Positions 5,125 through 64,000 of a stretch of DNA of 64,000 nucleotides are shown in pieces. The stretch spans positions 21,353,402 to 21,417,401 of the forward strand of contig OX424567.1 in assembly GCA_949152475.1 (NCBI GenBank). The letters run 5' to 3'. The stretch is from Terebella lapidaria. Lineage: Eukaryota > Annelida > Polychaeta > Terebellida > Terebellidae. The notes below the pieces were generated by a model. That model made no database searches. It was not told the DNA's origin and saw only the letters and a list, made by a program, of their open reading frames with translations. Position 1 is the stretch's first letter. The number at the start of each line of letters is the position of its first letter. The position numbers and the translations under genes are program-made.

Positions 5125-5327
5125 CTCCTATGGCTGCTCTACCACATTGGATTTGCCTTGCTGACATAACTTTGCGAATATTTTAGTTTTCATCGTCTTA
5201 CGAACACTTTCTTTGCATGCCTTTTTGGATATTTCTTTTCCTCGCTCTTTTGGCGTGCTTCGCGTGGATAGTTTCCGCTCCTCGGACTTCGTTTTGTGTT
5301 TGGAGCGCGGACTCCCCTCTTGCCGTG

Positions 5328-7779: not shown

Positions 7780-7809
7780 GTGAGTACTTCACAGAATCAG
7801 CTCCCTGCG

Positions 7810-21900: not shown

Positions 21901-24900
21901 TTCTTTGTTACACCACCTGATCAGCATCCATGAAAGATAAGTTATAGGTCTGTATTTTGTAGGAAACCCAATGAGAGGCTATGCTCTATTGCAAGATATG
22001 TAGATTCTGTACGTACCAGCAGCCTGGCAAATGTATCCACGGGTGTTGCTCCCACTATTACACAGGTCGTCATTCCAACGACCATTCTGGGTGATGTACG
22101 CGCAGCGGCTGCTCAAGCTGTTGGGCTCATTGGCCGCCCAGTTAGTGTAGGCCAACTGCTCACCTGATGATAAAGGTATATGTTGTTAAAGTCGCTGCGA
22201 CAGCGTATAAGATGCTGGTTTATCTTGATGATATTGTTCTTTCTACTCAACGTACCTCCAGTCCATTTCCAGAGGTAGCTTGCAAGGCCGATGTGGTAGA
22301 AGTTTGAGCCGGTGAGAGAGCCGAATACATCGAGCCAGGTGGTCTGATCTGGGATGTAAGCCAAGTCCCCGCCGTATGTCTGCATACAGTCCCATCGTGC
22401 CTCGAACCAGGTCCTCGGGATCTCCACACGGTAGTAGTTGGAACCTGCGAAATATATTGTACAGGGTGTTTCAAAAGTAACATACCACCTTGTTATGAAA
22501 ATATATCATGACAATAATTCAATATATACAGCCAATGTTTTGCCATTTATTGCCGCATTGTACACCTCTATACTAAAGAAATTTTTTTTTTTGGAAAAAG
22601 TTTTGGAATTGCATTATATGATGTCATAATATGACGTCATAACAACATAAATCATGGTACCTGTATAAATGTTGAGGTCAAATATTTGAGCATTGAAGTT
22701 TGAATTTCATGGTCACACAAAATGACATTATCTTTAGAAGAGCGAATATTTCTAGTTAAGGCAGTGAACGGTCATAATGGAAAGTATTCCAAAGAAGTTC
22801 GGAATCTCTTCAAAGAAAAATTCGGAGAGGAACGCATCCCTGATCGACATTGTGTTGTTGCCTTAATGAAGAAATTTGAGCGAACTGGGAGCGTGCAAGA
22901 TCAACCTCGTAGCGGTCGTCCTACAGTTATCACTGACCAAGTACTTCAAGAGGTTACAAATAAATTACATAGAAGTCCACAGAAATCTTTGAGACGTCTT
23001 TCACAGGAAAATGGTATGTCGTTCACATCAACCTACAGAGCGGTTGAGAAACAGAAGTTCTTCCCTTACAAGGTTAGTGTTGTCCATGAACTCAAGGCCC
23101 AAGACAACGAAAAGCGAGTAAACTTCTGCCGATGGTTTGATCAATTCATTGACACGAATGGAGGAGATATTTTGAACGACACATTCTTCACTGATGAGGC
23201 ATGGTTTCATCTATCAGGTTATACAAACACTCAGAATTCGAGAACGTGGGCAACTGAAAATCCCCATAAAATCTTCGAGAAGCCGTTGCATGACCAAAAG
23301 ATCGGTGTTTGGTGTGCCATCTCGAGGAGCCGTATCATCGGGCCAATATTCTTCGAAAGCACCATTAACTCTCAACGATACATTGAGGACATTTTTGTCC
23401 CATTCTGTGACCAAATTACTGCATCCGAGAAGCAAAGGTCGTGGTTCCAACAGGATGGTGCGACTGCTCATACAGCACGAACCACAATGACAGCCATCAG
23501 AAGAGTATTCGGTGAACGCATAATTTCACGCGATTTATGGCCACCGCGCTCACCAGACCTCACGCCACCAGATTTTTACCTCTGGGGAAAATTGAAGGGA
23601 CTGGTTTATGCCGATAATCCTCGTACAATCCACGACCTCAAAGATAACATCAGACGAATCATTGACGATGTCACAGATGAAGAACTGCAACGAGTCTTCA
23701 ACAGCCTGCATCGCAGAGTCAGACTCTGCCTCCAAGTGGATGGCTTGCATTTCCAGCATTTGTTGTAATTACTAGTAGTTAAGATAATATAATATACCAA
23801 TGTTATGGAATACATGTATTTCCAATATCGGTGTTTTGTCACATTCTCTGCTATGAATAAATGTTGTCACATCAATGTAGCTTGTATGCTACTTCGTAAT
23901 ATATGGCAAATACTTGTGGTATGTTACTTTTGAAACACCCTGTATATGCAATGGAGTCTGAACGGCGTTCATGTTGGCAGGTTGTCCGAAGTCCATGTAA
24001 GTTTCCAGACTTTTAACAAGTGGTTCTTCTAATTTATAGAGTAACACATTTATGTTGAATGCTCAGGGTTGTATTTTGACCTGCATGGTTACCACATGTA
24101 GTACAGCGGCATGTGCACTTACCTGTCTGGCACACATAGTACAGCGGCCTGTAGCACTCTTGGTCGTTCAACTTCTTGCTGTTGAAGATGTCGATGGATC
24201 CACAGCTCTGGTAGCCATCATAGTTGTTCGGCTGGTTATATGCCCACAAGTCAAACCCACCTAGAAAAAGAATATACGACATCCTTACCAGATAATACAT
24301 CACATGATACAAACAACATATCTTGCACATATATGAGGACATTTCCAGTTCGTAGGCGAGTCTACTCGTTGGAATAGGTATATACGTACTGCCTCCAATT
24401 TCGATGACATTGTTGAAACCAAAGCCGCCGCATTTCTCGCTGGAATCCCCATCACAAGGCTCATTGCAGCCATTGCTGTGAATTGGTCTTGTGAAAGGGG
24501 TGTCAGACAACGGCTTGTAGGCGCACATACAGTTGTCTCCCGCCTGTATTAGGGTAAATGAATATGTAGTTATCAACCAAATACGTTATATCGGAATAAT
24601 CGTAGGCTAAGCGTCAGTCCTAAGCTCTTTATTTTGTGTGATTCTCCAGGTAATATGAGTGTTACGGTATACTCAGTTCTATGGTAAGTACTGGGAAGAT
24701 ACATATACATGTCTATGCATACTCACGTTGAGTCCCGCGAACTCGTAGCCATTGTTCCGGCAGTACTGGACACATTTGGCTCGGGTTGTGGACGTGGAGG
24801 CGAAGGAGCTGCTCGTGTCGACGTCAATAAAGTCCGAGGACGAGGAAATGTAGCGGAAACAACCCTGATCCGCAATGACCGACTCGTCTGAAACAGAAAG

Positions 24901-26799
24901 ATGCACATTATAAGCTGGACTACTTGTGATGTGGGCATGCATGATTGGTAGCGTTCTTGAATAAGTTGCATGGTCAATGTTTGTCACCCTTCCCTGAACT
25001 GCCAATAAATGATTAAAACGTACAGCTAGTGTTGACTGAATTACACCAATCAATCTTTCAGTAATGGGTATATCGGCTCCACAATGGTGTAAGTACAGGA
25101 TTGAACAGAGAGGTTGTGGCTCAATCTTGAATTAATGATATGAATCAATCCCATATACTGACTGTGGGTGTAGCGCCAGATCGGCCGAGTGAGGTCTTCC
25201 AACTGGACGTCGATCCAGACGCCATTCAAGACGTTATTGCTGGAAAGGACGTTGGCGTAGAAATCGTTATCGTTGGCGCTCTTGATCTGGACGAGCGTGG
25301 CGCCGTCACTTTGGCAGGCGCTCTCCGCGGCGTCACGGGTCTGGGCGCTTGTCACCAGCTTGTAACAGGTCTCGGAGTTGCGTTCGGTATAACCAGTCGG
25401 GCAGGTGATACCTGAGGGGGAGAATAGGGTCATCATTATAACGGGTTGTATGCATATTAGCTTGAATATTACACCTGACAGAACTAATGTATGAGGTAAT
25501 GCAATGGGTGTGTTATACATGTAGTGTCATATTGTCTAGGATATATTCATGGAAGCGTGGAAACCATTGGATGCAGGGTTCTCATGAAGTAAAAAATTAT
25601 GTTTTTTTTTCTCAAAAAAGAAGTTGAGAAAACAGGCATCGTCTCCATGTCATTGTAATCTATAAATCACAAAATTGAACAGAAAGTGTATATGATGGAC
25701 CAAGTATTGTGTAATATTTCAAGCATTTCCCCAGACAAAGAGTTGATTGATCCGTCAAGTAAGAGAATAGCCATCCTGAATGGTGACTGTACCACCTATC
25801 GATCTCATATAGATGCCGGTAGCACCTTCAATAGATATGCATTGTTGTCAATCATCAGAAATTTATGACATTGCTGGCACAAGCCAAATTTATCTACTCA
25901 TTAATGCCCACTTTTCACCATGCAGAACAAGTAAAAGCAGGTGAAATACTGGCAATGTCATTGTCATCAAATAGAATGGAACGTTACCTGGACGAGATAT
26001 TGAGCATAGGAACTACTACTACCTGATATATTTATGTAATATATGGTTTATGCAATATTTTGTATTCATGAAGGAATTGAAACTTAATGGGTTTCAATTT
26101 TCCAAATATGGTATGCAGCTCATTAAAACTACTCGACCGTTGAGAAAAGGCTCTTAAATCCGTCTTTACATATTTTATATATGTACTTAAGTACAAGCGG
26201 CTTAGCATACTAGGGATAACCTGGGCCAGCATTCAGATCGGCGGGGCCTCTTATAGGTCTATATAACCAGTACATATTTGTATTGTCCAACACAACAAGT
26301 ATCGCTGCTTTTTATACGGCTATCAATATCTGATTAATACAATGTTTCGTTTGTTGAATTGTATACCTTCAAAAATAAGTATACGAGCCATCCGTCCTGA
26401 ATTCGCCGCATTCCCAAATTCGCCAACGTGGATTTCAGGACTTCTAATGTAAATGAAACTAACAAGTTCGATCGTCAATCGAAACTCTGATATCCAATCT
26501 CTGTTCCAGTAAGTTATTTTCCACAAAACGAGCTTCTAAGTTCTGATAATATCGAGTTGGCGAATTCTGGGATGCGGCGAATTTAGGACGGATGGCTCGT
26601 ATCTGAAATTCGTACATGGAATAAATAGAATGGTGGACTATTTGAGAAAATGATACAAACTACTGTTATGTTCATACTGTTCGATGCTTAAAATGAACGT
26701 ACACAGTTTAACTTCAATGAACGTTTCTGATAATTTTAACTTACCTAGGACCGAAGTCACGGACGCCAAACAAAGTACGATTACAGCCAATGTCTCCAT
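18983..26799 (-). CDS. C-type lectin / WSC single-pass membrane receptor, 12 exons, 618 aa
   Basis: Putative type I cell-surface sugar receptor. Exons (minus strand): 26799-26745, 25411-25163, 24887-24727, 24543-24390, 24260-24123, 22444-22256, 22163-22017, 21379-21176, 20952-20704, 20499-20415, 20301-20177, 19083-18983; they sum to 619 codons. Order: signal peptide (METLAVIVLCLASVTSVLG), first half of CTLD1 (residues 20-101; Cys 22, 34, 51), WSC domain (103-206; eight Cys from 111 to 193), second half of CTLD1 (208-252; QPN, LND, Cys 226, 242, 250), CTLD2 (254-364; EPN at 328-330 and WND at 345-347, the mannose-type calcium-site motifs; Cys 272, 336, 350, 361), Thr/Pro mucin-like stalk (365-510), TM helix (about 512-537), basic stop-transfer KRKNNRK, tail ending VTVDERY. 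Nearly all introns are phase 1. An in-frame stop at 20160-20162 gives an alternative tail end (SMYRL) if the last donor is not used. No named orthologue recognised. A mariner-like element lies in the intron before 22444. Confidence 0.85.
21176..21379 (-). repeat. Thr-codon-rich low-complexity exon (mucin-like stalk)
   Basis: On the minus strand this is almost pure ACN codons with a few Pro codons, giving poly-Thr/Pro. It is bounded by a CTAACAG acceptor and an ACTG|GTACGT donor, both phase 1, so it can vary in length or be skipped without breaking the frame. O-glycosylation is expected for such a stretch. Confidence 0.8.
22462..23942 (+). mobile_element. Mariner-like (IS630/Tc1/mariner) DNA transposon, apparently intact
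   Basis: A 1,481-bp element with perfect 27-bp terminal inverted repeats (22462-22488 and 23916-23942; outer end CAGGGTGTTTCAAAAGTAAC), flanked by TA on both sides (22460-22461 and 23943-23944), the usual duplication for this superfamily. One uninterrupted transposase ORF. It is inserted in an intron of the lectin/WSC receptor, opposite to its transcription, 17 bp from the 3' splice site of exon 22444-22256. Perfect repeats and an open frame indicate recent insertion. Confidence 0.95.
22722..23768 (+). CDS. Mariner-like transposase, 348 aa, D-D38-D
   Basis: Cut-and-paste DDE transposase. N-terminal helix-turn-helix regions (LSLEERIFLVKAV about residues 3-15; DUF4817-like FERTGSVQDQPRSGRPTV at 52-69 with the GRP linker) precede the catalytic domain. 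Catalytic residues seen: Asp158 in FTDEAWFHLSGY, Asp245 in WFQQDGATAHTA, Asp284 in WPPRSPDLTPPDFYLWG. There are 38 residues between the last two, so the third acidic residue is Asp rather than Glu and the spacing is longer than classical mariner DD34D. The ORF starts at the first ATG and ends TAA with no breaks, about 350 residues as usual for the superfamily. I do not assign a subfamily name. Confidence 0.95.
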   Translation: MTLSLEERIFLVKAVNGHNGKYSKEVRNLFKEKFGEERIPDRHCVVALMKKFERTGSVQDQPRSGRPTVITDQVLQEVTNKLHRSPQKSLRRLSQENGMSFTSTYRAVEKQKFFPYKVSVVHELKAQDNEKRVNFCRWFDQFIDTNGGDILNDTFFTDEAWFHLSGYTNTQNSRTWATENPHKIFEKPLHDQKIGVWCAISRSRIIGPIFFESTINSQRYIEDIFVPFCDQITASEKQRSWFQQDGATAHTARTTMTAIRRVFGERIISRDLWPPRSPDLTPPDFYLWGKLKGLVYADNPRTIHDLKDNIRRIIDDVTDEELQRVFNSLHRRVRLCLQVDGLHFQHLL

Positions 26800-34962: not shown

Positions 34963-38352
<3,390 letters not shown>

Positions 38353-45539: not shown

Positions 45540-45930
45540 AAATGTTTTTCGAGTATTCGTTTCCATGGCTACTGCTACTGATGTCCATGGTCACGACGCT
45601 GTTGAAATACTGGTCTCCATGGTTGCATTGCTGGTTCCCACGGTTGCATTGCTGGTTCCCATGGTCACGATATCACTAAGCGTATGCCCCGTGGTTACAA
45701 AATGTTTCCATGGTTACAGCATTGTTGAAGTGATGCCATCAATCGTTACGCATTGCTTCCATAAATACCCGTTTCCTAGGTAACATATGTGTTTCCAAGC
45801 TTACACGATCCTGTTGCAGTATTGTTTCCATTGTAACGCAATGCTGTTGAAGCTTTGTTTTCAAGGTTTCACAACATTGCAGTATTTGGTTCCATGGTAC
45901 GTTACACGACGCTGTTGAAGCGTTGGCCGG
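45540..45930. repeat. Degenerate minisatellite abutting the last codons of the SAM-Death gene
   Basis: About ten variable units of roughly 30-35 bp with the core CCATGGTTACA...GCTGTTGAAG on the + strand. The last unit overlaps the end of the coding exon: the segment CACGACGCTGTTGAA that encodes the C-terminus and precedes the stop recurs exactly near 45594-45608. On the mRNA it forms the first part of the 3' UTR. Confidence 0.75.
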
Positions 45931-48900
45931 AGTGTAGGTATTCGTTACTCCCGTGAACTTGCTCCCTCAGGATGAGATCAGACAAATCTTTGCGCTTGGC
46001 GGCCAAAAACGCCTGGTTCAGTTTAGCTTTAACCTGGAAGTATTTTTAATACATGCAAACACTGTATGTAAATGAATGTTCATCTATAGGCCTGTCGACC
46101 CAATCTTGTACGTCCGACAAAATTCAATGCAGGCCTATAATATTATGATGGATACAATGAATACAATAGAAGAACTGAAATCAAGCATACCGGAACATTG
46201 AAATGAGAAACTTTGGGAATAGGAAGCAATTTCGAGACCGAACATTAAATATCGACATGTAGGCCTAGATATCCAAAACCATACTGGCCTCATCAAAGGG
46301 AGAAAGTGTGTGAAATTTTAGGGATACAGCATGTACAAGAGATGGTAGGCCTAAATATAGAACAACTGACCAGCAATTGATTCGTCATGAAAACGAAAAG
46401 CTACCGAGTGGATAGGCCGAGCCTAGTTCATGTTACGGTTATCAGTCGACCCACCTGCTCTTTGCCCCCTCGTTCCTGGTCTCGCCACAACCGCAGCATG
46501 TCACAAATTTGTTGTTTTGTGTTGCCAGGATTGTTATGAACCAGATGTTCCTGTTGTGCATTCGAGATGCCAAGATTGGCCGCTACATGCCGCCACTCTG
46601 CGCCCAGCTGATTCGACAGTTCATGGAGTCCCGCGTCGGATAGCAGACCTGCAGAAACAAATTGGACCTGTCTGTTTGGTATACTTTATATTTCAGATTC
46701 TGTCTTGCAGAATAAACAGGAACTGCGGAAGACGCCATGCGGTTTTTACTCACTCATTTATTATTTACGGAACGTAGATAATTAGGGAACATAAAAGATA
46801 TTTATTGGACTGTGGATTTTCAGTACCGGTACATAACATCTCCCTCTTTAACAATTGAGATGAACATTTTCATGTAAACATTAAACAAAACATCATCATG
46901 TATACTAACATAATACCATACTAATGGAAAGCGGCTACTTTCAAATACAAACAATTTACTGAACAAAGTTTGCTTAATGTGTCGGCGGTTTGGAAACACG
47001 ACCTGATCTTGTCATTCTGGGGACATTTGGGTTTCGATCGGGTGGGTCTGGGTGGGACAGCGGCAGGAGGATTGGCAGGAGGATCGGCGGTTGCTTGTAG
47101 GTTCTGTTGTCGTCTCGCTTCTGGACGATTGTTGACTAACTCCAGATCTAACTCCACTTCAGGTTGAAACTCATCGTTCTCCCTGGTCTTCAGCAGATCT
47201 CTTCGGTTTCTTCTCCAAACTCGACCTTGGTTGGGTGTTTCTCCTGAGCAGTCTTCCAGGTGTGCAGGTTTTCCCTGTCCGGACACGCACTGTGTTGTCC
47301 AGGTCTAACTGCAAAAGATGTTTCGAACCTGGATCATAGTAGTAGTTTCGCTCGATACTCTGTCATTTTCCCCTCCACTTGATCTGGTGGCTTCACTTGA
47401 GGTTTCAGCAAAGTAGCTGCTGTTTGCAGTTTCGTTCTTGTTCGTCTGGACATCAGCCTCTGGACTGGGGATCTAATCGTGTCGTCACTGGGGGTATTTC
47501 GTAGATTCAACAATGCTAAATGGGGGTCTTTTCCAGATTCTTTACATTTCTCAAGCAGTCTCTTTGCTATTCCCACTGCTTTTTCAGCTAGTCCATTGGT
47601 TTGTGAGTGGAGTGGGGACATTTTGTTCAGTCTGAAGCCATAATGTGTGGCAAAGTCTGCGAATTTTACGCTGTTGAATGGTGGGCCATTGTATGAAGTA
47701 CATTGTAGTGGGATTCCAAACCTTGCAAAAACTTTCTTCAATTCCTGTATGACAGTGGTGGCTGTGGAATCTTGTTCCAGTTTGATAATCTCGAAAAATT
47801 CACTGTAGTAGTCTATGCATATGAGCCATTTGTCTCCCAAGCAGTCAAACGAGTTCATTGCTACATGTTCTATTGGCATCAATTGTTCCTTCGACAGTGC
47901 ATATCGATGTTCTTGGCATGTGCTGATCCTCAACACGACGTCTTCTATCTGCTTGATTATCACCGGCCAGTACACCAGATCTCGGGCGAACTGCTTGCAT
48001 TTGACGATTCCCAAATGACTTTCATGGATGGCATAAAGATTTGCATTGCATTGACTTCGGATCACGACACGTTGTCCTCTGAATATGACGTAATCGATAA
48101 TTGCAAGGCTCTTCTTGGAAGTCAAAGTAGGGGCGTATCAGTGGATCCAGTTTGTTCTGTCTGTCTGGGCATCCTTGTGGCGACTCAATCACTTTTCGAA
48201 GTTCTGTCAGTGCTGGATCGTTTCTGGTTGCTATTTGTACTTGCATCGGTCTTTCTTGGCTGATCTGGCTTGTGCTCATCACTTCTGTGATTGCCACGGT
48301 GAACACATGATCCTCGGTTCTGTAATTCAGGACCCGAAAAGGACCCGAAGGACCAGGTAAGCTCTGCTCAGTGCATCAGCAACTGGTATCTCTGTGCCTC
48401 TCTTGGCGATCAGCTTGAAATCATAATGTTGGAGTTTCATCCTCATTTTCTGGAGTCTCATTGGCACTTGGAACAACGGTGTTTCCAGAATTCTCAGGAG
48501 TGGAAGATGGTCTGTCTCCACTATGACGTCACTTCTACCATACACATATGTATGGAATTTTCGGAAGGCGAAAACTATCGCTAGAAGCTCCTTCTCAATC
48601 TGAGCATATGCATTAAACATGGCAACAATACCAAGTATATAGTATCCGAGCAAACAAAACCGAGTCCATTATCCAATCTCAAAGTCCAGCGTCAGGCAAA
48701 ATCGAAAAAAGTTTTAATGGAACTTCATGAACCCCCATATAAGGCCATAAAGGGGTGAAATCAGGTGTTTTGGAAAGAGTGAGCATTTCCTGTATTCACT
48801 ATTCAGCTTGTGTTAGCGCCTTCGATCCGTACGCTACAGGTTGATGTCTTTATCCTTGGAAGAGTACACAGCCTAGTCCAGACTGTGAGGCGTCACACGA

Positions 48901-51900
48901 AATAGTTATTGGTGTATCAGTACTGTAGTACCTCAGTACTAGAGCAGTTGTCATCATTTTCTTAAGTTGTTCAAATGCATCTCAGTGCACTTCATCAAAA
49001 TGCCACTTGAAGTCTCCCTGGCTTTCTTTGATGAGTTCACGCAGCGGCTCTGTCACTGCAGAAAGGTACATAGCTCACTAATGTGCTCATAGCGCACCTT
49101 AAACAGAAAGGTTGGGTAGAAACTTGCATGTGTATGTGACCATACCCAGGAAGTATATGTAGGTTCGCAATACTTTTTCGGCTCGGGCATTTCAACAACA
49201 GCTTTCACTTTACTCGGGTCGATTTTCACTCCATGTTGAGTGAGTATATGTCCAACATACTCAACACTGTGTGAGCACAGTTTCGTTTTCCTTGGGCCGA
49301 ACTTGGCCCAAGTATCATACACTGCGCCTTAATACTACTCGTCCACTAAATGAATGCCATTTAATCCGTCTGTCACCTTTTTAACCCTCATTGAATATAG
49401 AGGAAGGCGCAGTGTATGATACTTGGGCCTTGAACTTAAGGTTTATTTGCCTGGATTTCTTCAATACAGCTTCGAATCGCTCATTGTGCAGTTGTAGTGT
49501 TGGGGCATGTATCAGAATATTATCCATTATGATTTCAACTCCTTCGAGTTCACAGAACAGCTCACTCATTGCTCTCTGGTACAATTCAGGGGCTGTAGAT
49601 ATGCCCATGGGTAATCTGTTGTATTTGTAACGACCGATTGGCGTGTTGAACGTCGTCATCATGCTTGATTCTTGTAAGTAGCCCATATTCGCATCTAAGC
49701 ATGTGAAATATTTCAACTTATCAGTGCGTGTGATGACATCATCCAGTGTAGTAATTGGGTGATACTCTCTCTGGAGCGCTTTTGGATCAATAGTGATTCT
49801 GACATCGACGTCTGGCGTCACGTTCTTCTTGTGGACGACGTGCAGAGCACTGCACAATGGCGTCGGTGTCCCAAACGGTATCTTCTCAATGATGTTCAGC
49901 TGCTCGTGCTCTGCTAACTTCTTCTTTGTGCCTTCTCTCAGTGCTGCTGGGATAGGTCTGGGAGGGTTGTCCACAGGGATAGCACTAGGGTCACACTTTA
50001 GTTTATATTCACCAGGCACTTTACCAAAACCTTGGAATACATCAGCATATGATTCCTTTATTTTCAGTGCACCCTCATATTGACACTTGTATTTGCCATC
50101 ATGATTCACATTTTCATGCACATTATGATTTGATTTCACACCCTGTACCTGTGATAAATTATCTTCTCTCTTGACAAGTTGCAGTCTCAAACTGTCATGC
50201 AGACCAATTACATTGGGTACATTATGATCAAGTTCACAGGTACTCATGTCATAACGGCCTCGGTGGAGTACAGGCAGGATCACTTGACCACTAGATTTTG
50301 TTTGAGAACCTTTGAAATCATACAACACAGTATTGTTTCATGTCACATCAGGCTTAACAGATAATTTGTCATACTCTTTCTTTGATATCACTGACGTATC
50401 AGCACCAGAATCAATCTTGAATGATATCAGCTCATGTGCTTGTGTTTGAAATTGTACATCCCAAGATGAAGCATTGTTCTTGCTTCCCTCGATATTCATT
50501 CATATGTAAGCTTCTTGTCCATGATTTACATCACAATGATCACTTTCTGTATCATACTGTGCATACTATGTACTCGTATTATCAAAATACACATCATCTG
50601 AACATACATTGTCACGTGATTGAACAAAATTCACATTTTTCTTTCTGCATACACGAGCATAATGATTCATACCATGACAATAACCACATTCTTTGCCAAA
50701 AGCAGGACAAATAAATATAGTCATGATAGAATCCACAGGAACCACATGATCCAGCATTCTGCTGTCGACCTCGAGCTGGCCTGCTGTCACCCCGTCCTTG
50801 ACCTTGAGGCTGGGATGTCCGGAATCCTCTTCTTTGGTAGTAGCCTCGGTTGCTTCCAAATGGCTGACCGTTGCCATAGGAACTCCTGTGACTGTTTGAT
50901 GAAGGCTGTCCATCACCACAGAAACCTCCACGACTGTTCCCTCGGGGCTGACTGTTCCCACGGTAACCTCGGCTTCCTTGATGCTGTCCGCGGCCACGAC
51001 TACGTCCACGACGGTAAAGTGTGTGTACTTCTGAATTATCAGTCTTATTTTCACCAAATAACAGCTTCGTTTCTTGCTGTTGCTGGAACAGCTGGCACTT
51101 TTTGATTACATCAGCTAGTGATAAGTCCTCGTTCCAGAGTTTACGACGGAGAGCCAAGTTCCGCACTCCGTTGCTTATTTGAACACACAGGTGATCGTCG
51201 AGCTGGTCACCATGAGCACAGTCATTGGCGAGGTCTCGTAGTGCTGTCATGTGTTGTGTAACTGTCTCATTGGGGGCTTTGTTTTCGGATTTGGATTTTT
51301 GTGATGTAACATTTCTTGAGTTTTATTGGCTCAAACTGCGTGTGGAATGTTTTTAGCACTGTATCGAAATTATTCTTGTCGGCATCATTCAAACCTGCGT
51401 TGTTGAACACTCGCTGATATTCACACTCATACTGTACAGTAGTATAACGCCACTTTGTGCGTACCGTCCGCACCACTTTTCCCGGCCGCAGCAGTAAAGT
51501 AAGTTCGGAACTCGTCCTTGAAATCATTCCACGACTGCGCTAGATTGTCTGTGGGTTTGAACACCGGTGGCTTTATGAACTCCATTCTTTCTTCTGTCTT
51601 CTTGATGTGTCGATTCACTCTGACACCATGTTTCGTATACTTTATATTTCAGATTCTGTCTTGCAGAATAAACAGGAACTGCGGAAGACGCCATGCGGTT
51701 TTTACTCATTCATTCATTATTCACGGAACGTAGATAATTAAGGAACACAAGAGATATTTATTGGACTGTGGATTTTCAGTACCGGTACATAACACTGTCA
51801 AAATTCTGAATGGAACTCCTTCTCTCGTCTGCTTGTGCCTTGTGGGCATGTGAACCACAATTTTCACGTCACAGAGATCGTTGAGAAGGCAAGGTAGGGC

Positions 51901-52720
51901 ATATTCACCATATAGTTTAGGTGATTTCCCGATCATATTTTCTTTCTACCCACTGAAAGATCTTCAGAAATAAATTTCAAGATCACACTGGAACATACAA
52001 GTTGTGGAATGTTTGGCTTTAATGTACTTCATCCTGATTAGACTATGTAAGCTGAACTTCAATAACGTGGATTATGCTTACCGTGGAATCTTAGTCTAGG
52101 AGGATGTCCCGGAGGATGAAATCTTTCCAACGGGCGACCTGCAAACATATTAACCACTCAATTTACAACCCCCACACAGAATTAGGCGTAGGCTGAGTTC
52201 CTGTGAAAAATATCGAAGTACGTCATCCATATAGATGAAGGCTATCAGCCATCTTTCTACAACCTGTAGGGGAATGTAGGCTGCTGTTAGGCCTAACCCC
52301 GATGGTATGCGCTCGTGAGGCTGAGAGAGGCAACGAATCCTCCGCACTCCCCGCTGCTAGACTGAGTCCCTCGCTGTAGGTGAACGACGCTGAAGCGTGG
52401 CGCGGTGACATGGACAGCTCGTCCGTTGTCGTGCTTGAGCGTGCGCGACTGCGCTCACTCCCTGTACCCGAGGACTGGCGCCGACGAGGGCCTGCAACAA
52501 CGTATAGGATTACTCATCCAATAATGGCAACCAAAGGATTGATCTGCCAGATCGATTGTTGAACCAATGCATGGATCACCAATCATGCAGGGAATCACTT
52601 GACCATGTACTTATTATTAAGGAGATCAAATGTTATCGATTGATCATTTATTCACTTACCGAGCTGTTCGCTATCGACTGGTCTCCTTGTCTCATTGGCG
52701 GGCGGCTGCTGTTGTTGTTG

Positions 52721-52759
<39 letters not shown>

Positions 52760-55700
52760 TTGCAGCCTCTTGTGTATATTCTCAAGCACTGTACGCAGCT
52801 GGACCCTCTGTCCGATGTTGGGCAATCCCAGCATGTCGACATCTGCGGGTTTGAGAGCCTCCAGCTGTCGACGGGAGGTGAACCCATTCTCGCGCAGGTT
52901 AGCGGCTATCACCTCGGACAGCTCATGCTCCGTGCACCAGGCGGTCAGGAAGTCCCGCTTGCGCCGGTCAGGAGTTGGTTCTCGACTGGATACCCTCCGA
53001 TACTCGGTACCACCGTTGAGCAGATGTGACGTACTGTGCGCACTGACGCGTGTGGTATCACTTGCTTCGCTTTGTTGGGAGAGGAGTCCTGTTTGGGGGG
53101 GGGGGGGGGGTCAATGCATACCAATCGAATGAAAATGAAATTGAAACCACGACCGACACGAAAAGTACGTTGGATCAGGCATGGCGGGACGTTAAGTCTA
53201 CTCACGGGACATTTTAGGCGGTGCGTTGCGACGTTTCCTGGCAAGGCGGAGACGCCGCTGGATGAGGAGGGCCACGCACACGACGATCACGGCTGTGATG
53301 AGGGAGAAGACCCAAGCCACCGCCACCGTGGGCCAGTTGATCTTACCTAGGGGGTGATCCATTTATTTAGAATAAAGCGCGAATAAAAGTACTGTGCATG
53401 GCCTGGACTTACCAAGAAAAAGAAATTACAAGGAAGTCGTCATGACATAGTGCTCAGCTACATCAACTATCATAGACTACACCAGGTATTAAAACGTATT
53501 TATGTTCGCGTTCCTATTGTTTGCGTTTTGATGTGCTTGAATTCCCTCTATTGTTCGTGATTCATAAATTCACCCAATGTATGACGTAATGCTTTTGCCC
53601 GGTACTTTTTATACCCAGATAATTGTTGATGTTAATAAAAGGCTATATATATACCTAGGTGTGTGATACACCGCCATCATTAAATATCTTCCAAAGAGTG
53701 TGTTTAAATTTAAAACGGTACACATGTAGGACCTAACAGATTCAATGAGGCCAGGAGTAGAGATTTTGATGCTATTTGAAAATGTACTTCGAAAACCTAA
53801 CTATGATCAGGATGATTCTCGATAAAAATTGAATCGGCCTATATAGGTCTGGTGTTGAATATATGCCCTGCAATAAATATGTTCTTTACGAACACGTTTT
53901 ATGTCATACAGAAATTATATCATTTAGATGTACCATGACCTTTGATGGGAAGTTTGGTTGGACTTCGGTTCATAAGTTTCTATTCTTTTTGAACAGTTTT
54001 TTAATTGTCACCTTCACAATCTCAAGAAGTCAAGAAAATACCGATATCAATCTAAACTCTGCCCAGCAACCCTATTATATCATACATGAACAAGACATGT
54101 AATAAACTCAAATACAATTCATGTTCAATTTGGAAATTACGTTTGATTGCGAATAAATCATTGACTGGACTGTTTTTCACACCAAGAATAGCCTTTTTTA
54201 CTTGGACATTGTCCCCGCCCCCTCCAAAATAGGTATACAATGTAGAAAAATCACTTCGTTTTATGTAATCTGTATTTTATTCGCCACAAAACGATATAAT
54301 GCTCGACATGCAGGTCAAAAACTCTTACTGAAATACAAGTAGACTGACTAGACTCCTGAGTAAAAAAATATACTTCTCAAATGAAGATGTTTACAAAGAA
54401 AAAGAAACCGATGATGCTTTGGCCCACAGCGTTTCTCGATCGCGCGATATTATTTCCATATCACTAACTGATATGAGCCTATGATGTGCATGGTACGTGA
54501 TCTCTACTGTATTGATAAGGCAAGACTGACGTTCATAAGACCATGATCTATACCCCCTTCACGTGAGGTTCTCAGATATGACAGACAAGGTGAAGAACTG
54601 AGATCAAGAGTTTTTACGTGCGTGCAAAAGCGTGTTGATTAATGATTAAGATGAAGTGCGTTAATAAGTAAAATATAATAATAAAAATGAAATTATATGG
54701 GCCAGTTATGTCGAACCACTGAGTCAGAATTCAACAGAAATTTGTTAAAATCATCAGCAAGTGACATACGTATATTGAACATGTACATATCAGTACTCAT
54801 GTCGTTGTATAATATATTTATAGTGTACACCGCACTTGATCTTGTGTATGGAATCTGTGTGTTACAACATATGTCAAATAATGATAATTTGAATATTGAT
54901 ATTAATATATATATATCAGCAATCGATATGTTATTAAGGAGAAAAGGTCTAGGTGTCAGTATGGTTATGATATTATGATAAAAGAACTTACCGTCATCTG
55001 CAGCGCTGACGGTCGGAAAACAGCAGCCTGCAAAAATATATACATGTATTTGTTGTTACAAAACGGTTCATGGTATGTAAGTAAAAGTTCACATTTTGTA
55101 GTTCAGTTGGGAAGAGTCACCAGGCGAATCAGTGAAAATCTATTCAATATTTCGATTTTTGAACATCAATCATATTACTGAAAATGATAACATCATGCAG
55201 AATATGTTCCAGTCAGAGCTATGTTTAGAATTCTTTGCTGATTTCATGACATATCCGAAAATATCATTTTAATAGCTAGTTCCCAGATATATACCAGTAC
55301 ACATATGTATACTGTAGACAAGGCCCATTCATCAAACTCGGATGTAAACAGAGCAAAAAAATGCAATTTAAAATAGCAACATCGATCATCATTGTTATAA
55401 AAATATATAAATATTAATGGGAGCGTGGGTACTTTGTACATTTTACATGTTGGATGGCAAGTTATAAACTATTGTTTTTTTTTCTCAGTTTTATGATATT
55501 TTTATTATGTAGAATAATCCTGATGGTGTACATTGTGGTCATAAAGGCAATATCACGATTATGATCTCAAACAGTCGTTAGAGTATGGGGGCATACGTTT
55601 CTTGCTCTCAAGATAACATACTGCTTCAAACATATTTATGTTCGATGTTTTCCTTATTTCGTGGAAATCATATAAAACTTAATGTTTATTAATAATGTTT

Positions 55701-58227
55701 TAGTTTGAGAGGAAGTCATCTCAATAGCTTCAAAGTGTTTCAATTATCCAGTATGAAACCTGAGCCTATTTTTCCATACAAGCATTTGTATGGGAAAACC
55801 CATTTAGAAAGCCCCAAGCTGACCAGCACCAAACGATTCAATGGAAAGTGAAATGAAAGTCAGATATATAAATTAGTCTCGATTAGATTCCCGAGTGATT
55901 CACAGAATCTTATCAATATGAGTGTAGCCAGCACAAATACGATTCTGCTAATAATACGTGTGTATATTTTGGAAAAATACTAATTCGGGTTGTGAATGGG
56001 TACTTTAGTGTGTACTTGTCGTTCACTTTTTTTCTCGGGATTGGTTTTGCAACTTCAAATTGATTCGGTGTTGGGCTGTGTTCTAAGTCACCTTATTGCA
56101 CATCAACGTCGTTGTATTTAACTCTATACTTTAAACAGTATACATGTACACTGATTTAGACTCCAATAAGACTTTAATATGAACCTTATGATGTACAGTG
56201 GGAACAATCATATTCCACACACCACATGTTTGCTTGAAAATTGTTAATCACTGCAGGTTTTCTATTGGCGTCATTAAAATCTGAGCTTGTTGCTCAATAT
56301 GTAAATATGTAAACCTACATTGCACAATTTTACGCATGCGGGTGCCACAACAGTGACTAACGGCAACATAATTTCTGTTTGTCGTTCCTACTAACCATGA
56401 CGAGGACGTATTGCAGCAATTGAAGAGCCCCAAACTCCAAATTATTCAGTGTACAGTAATTAACATCGATGACACTTTAGGGCAGATCTCTATACATTTA
56501 AGTTTCTGATCTTATTTAATTAAGTAAAAAATCTCGCAATTATGAAGTGACATCACATGTCTGTGTTCACGATGAGAAATGAATGAGCAGATCTATACAT
56601 TAGGTTGATTTGTGAGTGGTTCACGGAATCTTATCAATATGAGGGTACCGAGTACAAATACGATTTATTTTTCTCATGATACGTGTGTGTATTTGTGACA
56701 GACCATCTTTCGGGTTAAGAATCGGTACTTACTAGTATGTACTTGTTATGCAATTTTTTCTTGGGATAAGTCTTGAAACTCTAAGTCTGTTTTAATCGGT
56801 GTTGGGGCGTTCTATGTTATTCTTAAAGAGTGTATACCCATATTACACCCTCTGCTAATTCCATCAGGTGAACATTGGGAACAATCACATTCCCCAAATT
56901 GTCTGTTCCTAGTGACGTCAAATGAGGCTTCAGATACCAATGATTGGTTGGGATTTTTTTATCACTTCAGGTTTTTTTATTGTCGTCCTCAAAATCTTTA
57001 ATTGTTGTTGATCAATTTAACCTACATGGCACGATTTTTACGCAAGTGCAAACAAAACTGTTATAACTTCTACATAATTTCTACTAACCATCAGTAATTA
57101 CGAGAACATTTTACATTTAAGGAAATTCTAGATCAACATTTGATCAAATTCACCAAGTTGTGACCTAGTTTAGCCTGAAATTTCAACACTCAATATATGT
57201 AGATACAAACACATCCGTTTACCAAATAAGAAACCCTGCTATCAAGCATATCAAACATGTAACTCATTTCACTATACAGGGGTAATGTTAATTATGATAG
57301 GGGCACAACATATTGAGAGATATAATCAGTTGATACCAAGATGTGTAGAAGCATACACAATGGCTGTTCTTAGAGATCAGGGAAATGACGATGTTGAGTT
57401 TGTGATACTAAAACCGAAATAGTGAAAAAGTCAAATGCTTTGTCTGTTAGACATATGGATACATGAAAGTGATGTGGTTAGGTTAACTATAGCATCTTGT
57501 CCCAAATCGACGTTGACAACGTCTGCCCGAGTGAGGAAAAGTAGTACATGATAGACTATATTCATGTGTATATAGTTGGGTCATAGGCCTAAGGGTCCTG
57601 TACTCTACAAGCAAAGAATTTCCGAAATATAACATAACATTATAGGATCAGTCGTTTCTAGGACTGGTATAAAAACAACTACAAGTATTCCTGTCACTTT
57701 CCTTGTTTATGGGAAAGAAAACGAAAGTGGACAATCCAAAGGGCATGTCATGTAGGTCATGTTAACATATGTGTTGAGATGTTATTTTGAGACAAACCCG
57801 CAGTATGTAACACGTTCTCATGCTTTTTGGTTCATACGAAATGATCACCATATGAATGTAAATCCAGAAGTGATAAAATTAATAAAACATTAAAACTAAT
57901 TCAGGTACGTTGCCAAAAGTTTTTTTTAATCCTAAGTTGTGTTCATCAATGGGTCTATGCTACACTTTGTGCTTTGAAAATGAACTGTTTCGAAGAGAAC
58001 ATCTGTCATCGAATTCAGTAAAATCTACAATGCTTCTGCGTTCGCATGCATACTCGTGCACATGGTGTGCATGATGACCAATGTAATGGCTTGGTATGAG
58101 TAATCAATCGATCGATAGCTATTAAATAATACATTTGCGGACAGACATTGATGGTTTACTTACATACTGCCCAGAATATAGCCCAGACATGCAATCGAAT
58201 GTGGCCGACTCTCGCTACCAAAGCCAT
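45902..58227 (-). CDS. Single-pass membrane protein with SAM and C-terminal Death domains, 8 exons, 426 aa
   Basis: Putative membrane adaptor/receptor in Death-domain signalling. Exons (minus): 58227-58164, 55027-54992, 53346-53206, 53088-52660, 52491-52264, 52138-52082, 46648-46455, 46033-45902; total 427 codons, all junction phases match (mostly phase 1). Signal-peptide-like start (hydrophobic HVWAIFWAVCCCFPTVSA, cleavage plausible before ADD), a linker of only about six to nine residues, TM helix about 40-62 (VAWVFSLITAVIVVCVALLI), basic stop QRRLRLARKRR, SAM-like domain about 125-190 (FLTAWCTEHELSEVI, LRENGFTSRRQLEAL, LGLPNIGQRVQL), polyGln, Ser/Arg-rich linker, Death domain about 320-400 (LSNQLGAEWRHVAANLGIS, QICDMLRLWRDQ), C-terminus RFNSVV. 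The second exon is a 36-nt microexon. Donor of exon 52491-52264 (ACAG|GTTGTA) is weak; reading through it gives a stop at 52223 and a protein without the Death domain. An LTR retrotransposon occupies the intron before the Death exon. I know no named orthologue with this order. Confidence 0.8.
46673..46838 (-). repeat. 3' LTR
   Basis: 166 bp, starts TGTTTGGTATAC on the + strand and ends GTACATAACA; near-identical to 51629-51794. It is short for a gypsy element. Confidence 0.93.
46839..46850 (-). other. Polypurine tract of the LTR element
   Basis: TAAAGAGGGAGA on the minus strand, immediately before the 3' LTR; it primes plus-strand DNA synthesis in this class. Confidence 0.8.
47330..50460 (-). 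pseudogene. Broken pol of the LTR element (protease, RT, RNase H, integrase)
   Basis: On the minus strand: protease box DSGADTSVIS (about 50393-50420); RT pieces from 50328 down to 49440 (VPGEYKLKCDPSAIPV, IPFGTPTPLCSALHVVHKK, RYKYNRLPMGISTAPE) with the catalytic pair changed to MDN (49511-49535) and a deletion before TTFNTPIG; the RT end after a MITE (KTKLCSHSVEYVGHIL); RNase H (CDASQSGLGCVLFQ; YAQIEKELLAIVFAF) split by an insertion of about 170 bp near 48620-48790; integrase (HESHLGIVKCKQFARDLVYW, QTNGLAEKAVGIAKRLLEK) with one zinc-finger Cys lost and the second catalytic Asp replaced (TSYNGPPF). Multiple stops and frameshifts. Not functional. Confidence 0.88.
49305..49429. mobile_element. 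125-bp MITE inserted in the RT of the LTR element
   Basis: Perfect 26-bp terminal inverted repeats (49305-49330 and 49404-49429; inner end ACTGCGCCTT). The flanks share GAACTT (49299-49304 and 49432-49437); an 8-bp duplication with two mismatches is also possible. Removing the insert plus one flank restores an uninterrupted RT phrase at that point, so the insertion boundaries are well fixed. Too short to code. Confidence 0.88.
50560..51600 (-). pseudogene. Broken gag of the LTR element
   Basis: Frameshifted pieces from 51600 down: FIKPPVFKPTDNLAQSWNDF, an internal capsid-like part (VRNLALRRKLWNEDLSLADV), an Arg/Gly/Gln-rich region, and a CCHC zinc knuckle CGYCHGMNHYARVC (about 50655-50700). 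No single frame spans it. Confidence 0.85.
51611..51628 (-). other. tRNA primer-binding site of the LTR element
   Basis: TGGTGTCAGAGTGAATCG begins directly at the inner edge of the 5' LTR. The TGGTGTCAG start resembles the tRNA-Leu-type sites of many gypsy elements; the match is by eye. Confidence 0.7.
51629..51794 (-). repeat. 5' LTR
   Basis: 166 bp, ends GTACATAACA next to the target duplication CTGTC at 51795-51799. Near-identical to 46673-46838. Confidence 0.93.
52705..52765 (-). repeat. CAG/CAA trinucleotide repeat coding for polyglutamine
   Basis: On the minus strand a mixed CAG and CAA tract in the SAM exon, immediately after the SAM domain, giving about 18 Gln plus a preceding QQE. 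Likely length-polymorphic. Confidence 0.9.
53095..53110 (-). repeat. Homopolymeric C16 polypyrimidine tract at a 3' splice site
   Basis: On the gene's strand a run of 16 C directly precedes AAACAG|GA, the acceptor of the SAM exon (53088). It acts as the pyrimidine tract and is mutable in length. Confidence 0.75.
55860..57130. repeat. Diverged tandem duplication of about 0.57 kb
   Basis: 55870-56450 and 56605-57130 run parallel (shared AATCTTATCAATATGAG, ACAAATACGATT, ATACGTGTGTGTATTT, TCGGTGTTGGG, AACCTACATGGCAC-like). Offset about 730 bp, perhaps 70-75 % identity by eye. It lies in the long intron between exons 1 and 2 of the SAM-Death gene. No ORF. Confidence 0.75.
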
Positions 58228-58543
58228 GGTTTGCTCGGCTAAGCTGGATATAGCCCGGTAGATATTGAATCAGTCACATTGTAATGCCTCTATATCGTCC
58301 TAGGCGTTCACGCCCGGCTGCGCAATTATTACAGCGTCTCCGAGTATCCATATTTACATCGTTTTAGCTTTAAATATCTTCACGGTAGTCCCACAAAATA
58401 GAAATAAAGTCTGTTCACGTGTACATGAGGTGAAGTTGATGGCCGACAATATACAAGTACCACCGCTACACAACACAACACACCTAGGCTAAGCTGTCAT
58501 CTGTCTGCAGGCAGGTATGTCATATAAGGCAAGGTCACGGGCG

Positions 58544-58593
58544 TGACGTCACGGGGACACCCTCCTCCCCCTCTCCAGTCACGGGGAATTCCC
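58544..58593 (-). promoter_or_regulatory. CRE-like and kappaB-like sites upstream of the SAM-Death gene
   Basis: TGACGTCA at 58544-58551 and the palindromic GGGAATTCCC at 58584-58593, 320-370 bp before the start codon at 58227. Both are palindromic, so strand is arbitrary. GGGAATTCCC fits the NF-kappaB/Rel consensus. Functional role is inference. Confidence 0.4.
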
Positions 58594-58599
58594 TTAGTC

Positions 58600-60430
58600 A
58601 TCACCTGCCTGGTGACAAAAAATCAATAGATCTTTACAAACTGCTCGCTTGAGGGCTCACTTTGGCCTACAAACATTTAACTTATTGAACTCTTCAGTTG
58701 AGAGCGTGAATGAAAGATTGAATGAATGGTGTTTAGGTCGATTTTGCGCACTGCATGAGCCGTGAAAAAGAACTATTCAACTACCACAAAATACTAGTAA
58801 TGCAGAACGATACAGTTTATGCAAGAAAAAATTTGCCTTGACTTCATATCAGCAAACTAGCAGAACAATAAATTCATTCATGGAAATACAAAAAGAGGGA
58901 AAATATAGTATGATGTAGATCATGAAACACAACTGAACACTACCGTATCTACGAGTATGTACCATTTATCTATGACAAGTCTCAACCCCATAAAAAATAT
59001 TGGTTAACATGACATACTGAAACAATAAAAAAAAATATTCGCAATTGGTCATTTGTATAATATAAAAGGACAACATAAGTACGTAGACTCGACTACATCA
59101 TATGCCTACATTATGTCTGTCATTGATGACGCCAGTGTTGCGCCAAATGTGATGGCCGTGCATTGTTTTCATTCCAGGAGTTGTTCACTATGTATATCTT
59201 CTATTGACTTCATCGAGATTTTATGATAATACATAAAGACGCATTTTATTCTACTACACACAAAATTTTACTCCATATGTGCGTGAAATTAAAGGTTTAT
59301 GCATAGCTGCAACCACTACAAGGAGCTGGGTCTTTGCTGCAGCGATTTTGTGGCACCTGTGTGTGCCAATATCCATCATACCAGTTCGCATGATGATGTT
59401 TACTGATCACATGGGGGTCAGAACAGACTTGGGCGTCCGGACCCACATGTCACCAAAGGTGTGCTTAATGACAAAAAAAACAATCAATGAACAAGTAGTA
59501 CATGAATGGTTTGAGATCCGGGTTGAAGATGGGAAGTAACTGAAGAATCTACAGCATTTGAGCATCGGAGATGGCCAAATTTGACGTTTGCCATGGTATG
59601 AACCAGGAAAACGCCAATGAAAACTGATTCTATGAACCTTTTTCAAAATGAAATTGCTAGATATGATGACCCCGTCGAATAGAGTCCATCCGAGCTGTGA
59701 GGATATGTCCATGATAGGTCAACGAATATTATACAATTTCGGACTCGAAGTGTTTACATACAATTCCTAGGTTCACCACTGATATGATCGACTCGACCAA
59801 TGGTCAATGCAGGAAAACCAGGCTCGATAACCATTCTATCATTGTCTAAATCAGTGATCCACCAGACTAGAAATCCATTATGCTAGATATAGGTTATCGG
59901 AAAATAACTTTATAATCTCACCATATCATAATGCGAACAAAATTTCGGTATCCTCACCTGTCTGGGTATCGTTTTGTATTCATAGTCTAGATCTACTTGG
60001 AAAATTGATGGTCTAGGTTAGACTTGTACAGCCATGGGCATTCAGATACATCATTGGCACTTTTGTGCATTCTGGAATCTGAATCCGTAATTCATTGTTT
60101 TCACCATTTTGTTACCTGTGACCATTGAACCTGGTCGTCACAAACATATTTTTTGGTGGAACATATGGCGTTTGTACTTCTACTACATTTGAGGTTCCGA
60201 AATAGCATTTCCGCAGTTTGTCGAAGTCTGGTGTATATTCAGCAAAGTCCACTAAAAAATGTATCGTGTAATAAAGTATTTAGCATTTACGGTAAAATGT
60301 TATTATATAAAGAGCATGTGAGCATTCAGAGTGAAAAACAAATCATAAAAGACCGAATATAACTTTGTGTCGAAAGGCAATGGCTGTACGAAGTTGAAGT
60401 AAAAACGACTTCATGAAGACTTACTCATAT
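58600..60430. other. Gene-free stretch
   Basis: AT-rich DNA with only short unsupported frames. Nothing recognised. Confidence 0.4.
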
Positions 60431-60689
60431 CCTCTGTGGCCGAGTGGATTGGACTGGTGGCTCTTGAAGCAACGAAGCTCAGAGGCGGTAGGTGACGCGT
60501 GTTCGATCCCCGTCACCGGCACAAAGTAGGTGGAGTTTTCATCCTGGCATTGCAAAGGTTTCTCAGTTCGAATGTGCTTTCCAAATTCAAAAATGTCACT
60601 CGACGGGGGATGGGGAGGACAGGCAGAATTGCCTATCATCATGGACCGTCGTTAAACAAATCTGATTATTATTATTATTATTATTATTC
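60431..60689 (+). mobile_element. tRNA-derived SINE
   Basis: RNA polymerase III promoter boxes are present: box A TGGCCGAGTGG (60437-60447) and box B GTTCGATCC (60501-60509), with a long spacing and variable-arm-like region as in tRNA-Leu/Ser. A non-tRNA body follows and ends CGTTAAACAAAT before an (ATT)n tail (60665-60689). The acceptor stem does not pair well, so it is a SINE rather than a tRNA gene. Confidence 0.85.
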
Positions 60690-62760
60690 TCTATACAGCT
60701 TCACGATTAGCAAATATATTTTGGTACACGTATATGTTCAGAGTGATTTAGTTTGAATCAAACCCTTGAAAAGCTGGGGGGTTTCCCAAAGTTTACGTCA
60801 ATTTAATTGAGTTAGATTTTTCAGTAAATTCAAATTATATTCCCCCAAAACCTTCGAGTAACTTGTCACTAAACGTGACATTTACTGGTGAATTTAACCG
60901 CCCAAAACATCAACAAATGTTGCGTGATTTGTGAAAAATTAAATCAGAAGTTAGCAGTCAATAAACCCCGAGTTCAGTGTGGATTCAATCGAAATTATAT
61001 TATAAAAAAATTTCAGGTATTAGTCGAATATTACGGGCGTTTAGTGAAAACTTAAATTCCACTTTTCGTGCAGTGATATGAATGATTAAAAACTGAGTAT
61101 TTAGATGCCATTATACTGAAGGACTATACATGTTTGTTTTAATTACCTTCACAAGTTCACATACTTTTCCTTAATAACATTTCGGTAGGATAATAATCAC
61201 GAATTTTATTAGTCATTTTCTTTTTCAATATTCCCAAGATGTGTGGCTGCACGAAATCCATAGCTGCATTTCCGGAAATATGATCGAGCTTCTTTGCCAG
61301 AATGTTTTGTGATGGTTATCCTCAAAGTCACGAAACGCAGGATGAGCAGCCCGATGCTGCCGCTCTGTAGAAGCGCAATTGCAGCGACTTGGATGCCTGG
61401 ACCTCGATGACTGCAGATTTTGGGCTCGGAGAGGAACGTCATATGTTGGTGGTTATGTCGCACAGGTAGTCTTCTCCATGGGGAGAGCTGCGATATGCCT
61501 GGATCAATTCCTGAAACTCTCTCACATGACACTGGTCGCCAGGCGATAGGGCGTGTGGCGTCATCGCCGACTGGTTCATTTCTCTCATCGGGATGTCACT
61601 GAATCAAGTAACATGTAGAAGTTTGGCATTTAATAAACTCTCTCGTGAAGCCAATGACATGATTGAAACGAAAATCTCACTGATAGATTTTTTGGCGTCC
61701 CCTCATCCGAATTCATGTATTCGCCCCAAAACAGTTCATACTTCAATCAACATTCACCAATCACAATAACATCCGAATAAGGAGGTAGAAACTGTTCTAA
61801 GCTGTACCCTTTCAAGTCTCAATTTACCTGACTGCAATCCATTTGACTGTACTGTACAATCATTGAGTATAGAAATATCAAAACCAAAAATATAAAAGAA
61901 ACAATTATATATAAACAGCTACAAAATTAACAAAATGAAGCTCAATCGACACATATAAAATACATTCACTACTTCCACAATTATTTATTTCTATGTTTTA
62001 ATTATGGAACAAAAATGTAAGTTTCAAGCATGCATTCTCCTTTCATTCTCCACGCTATTGTAACTGGATGAACTTTTCTCAAGTAATAGGATTATGATGT
62101 TAACCACCATTTAGATGAACATGTGTCCATCGAATGTCATCAATTAATACAGCAAGATTACGGTGATGACAATAGAAACCCCAGCGTGAATTCACATATC
62201 TGGGAATGGGCATAACGTGGAGAACATATTCAGATGACAGAAAATGACACGATTACATAGTCCGTTCAAATTTTTATCTTTCTGAAATCTTTCTGAAATC
62301 TCAAACAAAAAACCCTAAAAATATTTCCAGAAAATGTTTTTTGTTTGTTTTTTCTCCTTTTTCAAAATGACGGTCATTTTTGACAAAAACGACCAAATTT
62401 GGATTTGGCGGCCATTTTCTGAAAATCTGTTCAGTAATTTTTACGTTTCCGGACCTTTGGTCCGATAACCTATTGTCGTGGCGTTGCGTCTGCCATCCGT
62501 CTACATTTTTTATCTAAGTTTTCGGTCGAATCTTTCTGAAATTTCGCACAAAATGCCTAAAAATATTTCGAGAGGCAACTTATTTTCTTATTGATGCTTA
62601 TCACTCCTCATATGTACCCCTGTGGCATGTATAAGATTCGTTGTACTTGAATCGCTTGGAGTGGGCCATTTTGGGCCAAAACTCAGCCCAAATGGGACTT
62701 TCTCATGTTAAATTCTCCTATGCTTTATAATGGGGCACATTTTCCCAAATATCTTACTTA
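60690..62760. other. Gene-free stretch
   Basis: No supported gene. A minus-strand frame at 61532-61209 is open for 107 codons but resembles nothing I know. A phrase containing TCTTTCTGAAAT...CCTAAAAATATTT occurs twice (about 62280 and 62525), suggesting a dispersed repeat next to the satellite. Confidence 0.4.
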
Positions 62761-62779
62761 ATATTGTGATTAGAGACTA

Positions 62780-64000
62780 GTAATCAATAGTGGACATATA
62801 GGAAATGATATATGCAGAATATTCTCACGACCTTGAGTTCGACCTTTGACCTAATTTTCAAGGTCATATGACAAAATGACTAATATTTTGCTTATTATCG
62901 ACTTTACAGCTTCGGAATCAATTGTGAACATATCGGAAATGATATCATAGAATAACCATGATGATATATTTTGAATATTGTCATGACCTTGAATTTGACC
63001 TAATTTTCGAGGTAACAGGACGAAATAGCTAACGTCTCGCTTATTATCGACATTACAGCTTAGGAATCAATTGTGCACATAGGAAATGATATATACTGAA
63101 TATTGTCTTTACCTTGAATTTGACCTTTGACCTTTTTTTAAGGTCACAGGACAAAATGGCTAATATCTTGCTTCTTATTGACTTTACAGCTTAGGAATCA
63201 ATTATGAACATATAGGAAATGATATACAGATTATTCTCGTGACCTTGAGTTTGACCTTTGACATTAATTTCAAAATCACAGGACAAAATGACTAATATCT
63301 CGCTTATTATCGATTTTACAGCTTAAGAATCAATTGTGAACATATACAAACTTATACTGAATATTGCCATGACTATGAATTTGATATCTGACCTCATTTT
63401 CAAGATCAAAGGACAAAATGGCTAATATCTTGCTTCTCTATTGACCTCATAGCTTGGGAACCAATTGTGGGCATACAGAAAATAATATACACTGAATATT
63501 CTGATGACCCTGAATTTGACCTTGACCTTATTTTCAAGATCAGAGCGCAAAATGGGTAATATCTCGTTTATTATTGACTTTACAGCTTAGGAATCAATTG
63601 TAAACATGAAGAAAATGATATATGCTGAATATTTCCATGATCTTTAATTTGACATTTGACCTCATTTTCAAGGTCACATGACAAAATGGCTAATATCTTG
63701 CTTCTTATCGACTTTATGGCGTCGGAACCAATTGTGGACGTACAGAAAATGATATACGCCGAATATTCTGATGACATTGAACTTGACATTTGACCGTATT
63801 TTTGAGGACAGAGCACAAAATGGCTAATATCTCGCTTATTATCGATTTTACGGCTTTGGGGTCAATTGTGCACATATAGGAAATGATATACGTTGGATAT
63901 TGTCATGACCTTGAATTTGATCTTTGAACACAATTTCAAGGTCACAGCACAAAATGGCTAATATTTTGCTTATTATCGGCTTTTCAGCTTAGGAATAAGT
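62780..64000. repeat. Tandem satellite, about 133-bp period, continuing past the window
   Basis: At least eight units; the landmark AGCTTAGGAATCAATTGTG recurs near 62909, 63058, 63189, 63322, 63451, 63586, 63718, 63852 and 63988. Each unit also carries GACCTTGAATTTGACCTTTG, CAAGGTCACAGGACAAAATG and ATATCTTGCTTATTATCGAC variants. Units differ by 10-25 % by eye. No coding frame. Confidence 0.92.

Follow-up and report, generated by a model that had tools for sequence, protein, structure and literature searches.

A candidate membrane-tethered SAM-Death protein with almost no predicted ectodomain in the annelid Terebella lapidaria

Results

A single candidate gene joins a membrane helix, a SAM-like domain and a Death domain

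We describe here a candidate gene of the annelid Terebella lapidaria whose predicted product combines a transmembrane (TM) helix, a SAM-like domain and a C-terminal Death domain. The gene lies in a 64,000-nucleotide window (the whole stretch of DNA analysed; C14:21353402-21417401 of a 761.6-Mb assembly in 438 contigs), where eight minus-strand exons (58227-45902, Table 1) join in phase to give 1281 nt, or 426 codons plus stop, in one open frame. In order, the protein has a signal-like start, about eight outside residues, one TM helix, the SAM-like domain, 16 glutamines, linkers, the Death domain and a terminal NSVV, which we take to be class I PDZ-ligand-like. An earlier, sequence-only reading of this DNA had proposed eight exons joining in phase to 427 codons, and the same order of parts. 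Rebuilding the model on the DNA gave that chain as one open frame including the stop, and recovered the order, with signal peptide and topology assigned by eye and by Kyte-Doolittle hydropathy and the SAM-like domain by fold. The interpretation we favour, with a probability of about 0.5, is that the exons form one gene for a type I, single-pass, membrane-tethered SAM-Death platform with a cytoplasmic tail of SAM, polyglutamine (polyQ), linker and Death segments. Directly supported are the frame, the exon chain on the DNA, the hydrophobic TM stretch, the SAM-like fold model and the Death domain.

Table 1. Coordinates of the exons and associated features (window positions unless a locus is named).
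Feature	Position	Strand	Description
Exon 1	58164..58227	-	Signal-peptide-like start, codons 1-22; start codon context ACCATGG
Exon 2	54992..55027	-	Last part of the signal-like segment, then outside residues ADD; residue 31 is the first of ADDG
Exon 3	53206..53346	-	Final outside residues, TM helix, basic RRLRLARKRR from residue 64
Exon 4	52660..53088	-	Ser/Thr-rich linker, SAM-like domain (residues ~125-190), 16 Gln (193-208)
Piece folded by AlphaFold2	52745..53005	-	Five helices, SAM order
Exon 5	52264..52491	-	Ser/Arg-rich linker; weak donor CAG/GTTGTA
Exon 6	52082..52138	-	Pro-rich linker GRPLERFHPPGHPPRLRFHG
Long terminal repeat (LTR) retroelement	46673..51794		In intron 6; 166-bp LTRs 46673-46838 and 51629-51794
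Exon 7	46455..46648	-	Bulk of Death domain; no Met in open frame before domain
Exon 8	45902..46033	-	End of Death domain, C-terminal NSVV, stop
Multi-copy gag-like frames	L015:1426-2469, L017:1471-1860; L019/L020; L022, L023, L025-L030		Own genome

Several properties of the chain indicate that it is coding. The codon-position periodicity of the coding sequence, computed after exclusion of the polyQ stretch and the three following codons, was 23.6, against a mean of 5.5 (standard deviation 3.2) in adjoining non-coding DNA, and none of 2000 overlapping non-coding samples of the same length reached it. Of 2000 mononucleotide shuffles of exon 4, 16 left its frame open throughout, and GC content was 0.50-0.63 in exons and 0.35-0.51 in introns, the value of 0.51 being that of the 117-bp intron 3. 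Donors are, by eye, near consensus in six of the seven introns, the exception being exon 5, where read-through would run into a stop after roughly a dozen codons. The short exon 2 is bounded by the acceptor TTTTTGCAG and the donor GTAAGTTC. Introns 1-6 are in phase 1 and intron 7 in phase 0, and the frame is kept if exon 5, exon 6 or both are skipped. Introns 1 and 2 measure 3136 and 1645 bp respectively, while introns 3, 4, 5 and 7 span 117-421 bp.

Profile searches support the Death domain and fold prediction the SAM-like domain

The Death domain previously placed at the C-terminal end is borne out both in the protein, where Pfam Death (PF00531) matches residues 326-404 with E 9.6e-7 (29.3 bits against a curated cut-off of 22.6), and in a whole-genome profile search, where the Death exon alone scores 34.5 bits against the same cut-off as one of 35 matches. 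By sequence, the closest solved Death domains are those of PIDD (E 1.3e-5), RIPK1 (2.5e-5), CRADD/RAIDD (3.3e-5) and FADD (3.4e-4), taking the best chain of each. These are cytosolic proteins that carry other partner domains and are not known to have a TM helix or a SAM domain. No p75 chain was present among the 28 PDB matches up to E 10, in a copy of that database which should include p75. Folded alone, exon 7 gave a predicted local distance difference test score of 67, which was too weak, and this model was not used.

The domain in exon 4 was recognised by its fold. A single-sequence AlphaFold2 model shows the five-helix SAM arrangement, and SAM or SAM-related structures account for 47 of the best 50 nearest folds listed for it (best E 0.086), EphA and EphB SAMs among them. 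Pfam SAM models found no match in the protein, and the domain alone matched no Pfam family at E up to 10. Thus, while the proposed Death domain is upheld by its hidden Markov model, the proposed SAM domain is missed by Pfam and recovered by predicted fold; the model indicates that the domain is SAM-like, with support from fold and without support from a Pfam profile. By eye, helix 5 opens with a basic stretch (IGQRVQLR), and helix 4 (ADVD) is acidic. In tankyrase, the SAM domain forms polymers by way of an end-helix that is basic and a mid-loop surface that is acidic (PMC4980433). The charge pattern of the modelled exon 4 domain is compatible with polymerisation of this end-helix/mid-loop type, and proves nothing.

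The predicted ectodomain is about eight residues long

Hydropathy analysis gave an N-terminal peak of 1.65 over a signal-like segment ending in PTVSA, followed by the predicted outside residues ADDGKINW and by a TM helix at approximately residues 38-63 (peak 2.85) with a basic stop-transfer stretch behind it. The first hydrophobic segment could also remain in the membrane. It is conceivable, though in our judgement improbable, that the model is incomplete at its 5' end and that unrecognised exons would add a real ectodomain, making the product an ordinary-looking receptor. Introns 1 and 2 are long and of phase 1-1, the usual site of extracellular modules, and exons 1 and 2 are short. Nonetheless, exon 1 begins with a strong-context ATG preceded by an in-frame stop 14 codons upstream, and Pfam searches of the three minus-strand frames found no domain in introns 1 and 2 or in 58200-64000 (E up to 1), nor in the next 20 kb upstream (E up to 0.1), while the identical procedure over 45850-52600 recovered both the Death exon and the retroelement domains. 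A frame-wise scan of this kind would miss domains that are unknown to Pfam, split over exons or disordered, as it misses the SAM of exon 4 itself. No Pfam match to TNF receptor superfamily cysteine-rich repeats was found in the model, in introns 1 and 2 or in about 26 kb upstream on the minus strand. The near-absence of an ectodomain, a central claim of the sequence-only reading, therefore withstood a search for further exons in introns 1 and 2 and this upstream region, which produced no ectodomain-type Pfam domain.

A retroelement separates the SAM-like and Death exons

Exons 6 and 7 lie 5,433 bp apart, and nearly all of this distance is one complete 5,122-bp LTR retroelement whose LTRs are identical at 159 of 166 positions, with a 5-bp target duplication (CTGTC) on both flanks. 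Its reverse transcriptase and RNase H score above the Pfam cut-off and its integrase below. A gap of 5.4 kb holding a retroelement might separate two genes, namely a TM-SAM protein ending after exon 5 or exon 6, for which read-through of the weak exon 5 donor would supply a stop, and an independent Death gene. We consider this very improbable. Without the insertion, intron 6 shrinks to 306 bp, in the range of introns 3, 4, 5 and 7; the strong exon 6 donor requires a downstream acceptor; and exon 7, whose phase 1 start suits exons 4, 5 and 6, has an open frame without a Met before the Death domain and so needs an upstream exon. The 306-bp intron and the lack of a Met favour a single gene for the two halves, as had been proposed, and a separate Death gene sought on the DNA did not show.

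Only 24 bp of intron (46649-46672) are left between the element and the exon 7 acceptor, and branch-point use may consequently be disturbed in this haplotype. Forms without the Death domain, or with read-through of the exon 5 donor to an early stop, are possible, and the retroelement adjoining the exon 7 acceptor provides a natural test of Death-exon skipping.

SAM-like stretches also begin gag-like frames of the same genome

Protein searches, in which 7996, 7995 and finally 38 word-sharing candidates were scored, returned no homologues from a collection that seems poor in animal proteins, so that absence is not implied. The genome itself was searched exon by exon with the polyQ-less protein at E up to 1. 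Among the matches listed there were 22, eight being the gene's own pieces and 14 lying elsewhere. Twelve of these 14 sit in three multi-copy frames that we label gag-like by eye (Table 1), one of the remaining two is in a SAM-like frame that occurs singly (L021), and the last is in a Death-like frame (L024, E 0.33); none of the outside loci listed held both modules in this exon-by-exon search. L021 is on the same chromosome (C14:17967885), is of the DFVSEWC... type (31%, E 0.145) and by eye is not gag-like.

The closest outside relatives of the SAM-like exon among the matches listed, C2:37035511 (38%, E 4.7e-6) and C17:985687 (34%, E 1.9e-4), appear by eye to be copies of one gag-like frame, and part of their alignment score comes from common Gln-rich tails. 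At its end the C2 frame carries a CCCH-type finger that scores slightly below the Pfam cut-off (19.1 versus 20.5 bits), while the C17 copy is followed by a reverse transcriptase (E 2e-11). Two more gag-like frames, represented by 2 and 8 copies in the listed matches (E 0.031 and above), likewise open with SAM-like sequence, and across the copies aligned the SAM-like stretches share 24-38% identity with exon 4. That these gag-like proteins open with a SAM-like assembly domain may in itself be undescribed; a single literature search on SAM in gag turned up nothing relevant.

Discussion

The sequence-only reading regarded the whole architecture as apparently undescribed, and our results divide this claim. 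For a SAM-like domain between TM helix and Death domain we found no match, with no published TM-SAM-Death combination in the literature searched, whereas a tiny ectodomain joined to a Death domain has a precedent in p45/NRADD/NRH2, a truncated protein with a short ectodomain, a TM helix and a Death domain that pairs with p75 (PMC4122344). Judged from one gene model, the novelty would lie in the architecture among membrane Death-domain proteins. The likeness to p45/NRADD/NRH2 is one of outline (a short non-binding ectodomain, a single TM helix and a cytoplasmic Death domain in the same order); p45 resembles p75 in its TM and Death sequences.

The main rival to the platform interpretation follows this precedent. 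The protein might be a non-ligand-binding partner that uses its TM helix and Death domain to pair with, and redirect or damp, a full-length Death receptor, its SAM domain docking another SAM protein instead of seeding a polymer. We think this unlikely, though less so than the alternatives above. Both proteins have a short ectodomain, a Cys-containing TM helix and a Death domain, but no p75-like chain appeared in the PDB search up to E 10, so that kinship to p75 would be conjectural. p75 and NRADD have a C-terminal PDZ-like motif; p45/NRADD is not known to have a SAM domain or polyQ tract. p45 heterodimerises with p75 by way of its TM Cys and Death domain, and the available text of that source does not mention a SAM domain in p45 (PMC4122344).

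Other systems share parts of the arrangement. Like the candidate, Eph receptors are single-pass membrane proteins with a cytoplasmic SAM domain, and their SAMs are near in fold. Eph receptors have a large ectodomain and a kinase, and are not known to have a Death domain. The TM-DED-TRADD-N family of the oyster C. virginica likewise consists of marine-invertebrate membrane proteins with a cytoplasmic death-fold module, but it is an expanded family with a cysteine-rich ectodomain and with DED and TRADD-N in place of SAM and Death (PMC8195603). Amphioxus hybrid genes (TIR-SAM, Death-NACHT, TNFR-caspase), some with transcripts, show comparable invertebrate shuffling of SAM and death-fold domains, although the TM-SAM-Death combination was not found in the available text of that study (PMC2575513).

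Death-fold signalling usually originates either from receptors that have an ectodomain or from cytosolic sensors. For the SAM-Death protein we infer expression, topology, polymerisation, partners and output, and propose the following mechanism. SAM-SAM contacts in the plane of the membrane would set the clustering of the tails, which the polyQ tract may aid. The clustered C-terminal Death domains would then meet and nucleate a Death-domain assembly at the membrane, and cytosolic partners of the FADD/CRADD/PIDD/RIPK1 class could join it to give a caspase or NF-kappaB-type output. Because there is no room outside to bind a ligand, the protein would be switched otherwise than by a ligand of its own, the switch perhaps being a membrane partner (through TM or SAM contacts), its own abundance or the state of the membrane.

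SAM domains are often polymeric scaffolds for signalling complexes, and a recent survey describes SAM polymers as scarce in innate immune signalling and SAM domains as unable to supersaturate (PMC13012725). A membrane-tethered SAM-Death protein would join two assembly modes that this survey calls largely separate (PMC13012725), and would make it possible to test cleanly if Death-domain assembly can be triggered by a membrane polymer that is itself non-nucleated. More speculatively, and with little expectation that it is correct, the protein might be a membrane signalling device lacking any external sensor, in which a SAM polymer in the plane of the membrane sets the threshold for Death nucleation, its SAM being akin to those at the start of gag-like proteins of multi-copy retroelements in its own genome, such that a transposon and a cell-death-type gene share a self-assembly domain.

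Other features of the window

A homeodomain exon at 37723-38352 (plus strand, E 1.7e-24) presumably resembles Gbx. At 5187-10787 (plus strand) an 1867-codon frame with a tyrosine-recombinase-like end below the Pfam cut-off overlaps a 798-codon frame with a reverse transcriptase; this element is probably DIRS-like. Open frames at 24037-25526 (minus strand) have C-type lectin and WSC matches, all under the Pfam cut-off, and a 354-codon open frame at 22704-23765 (plus strand) is, by eye, a putative transposase. A tandem array with periods of 134, 268 and 402 bp occupies 62748-63996.
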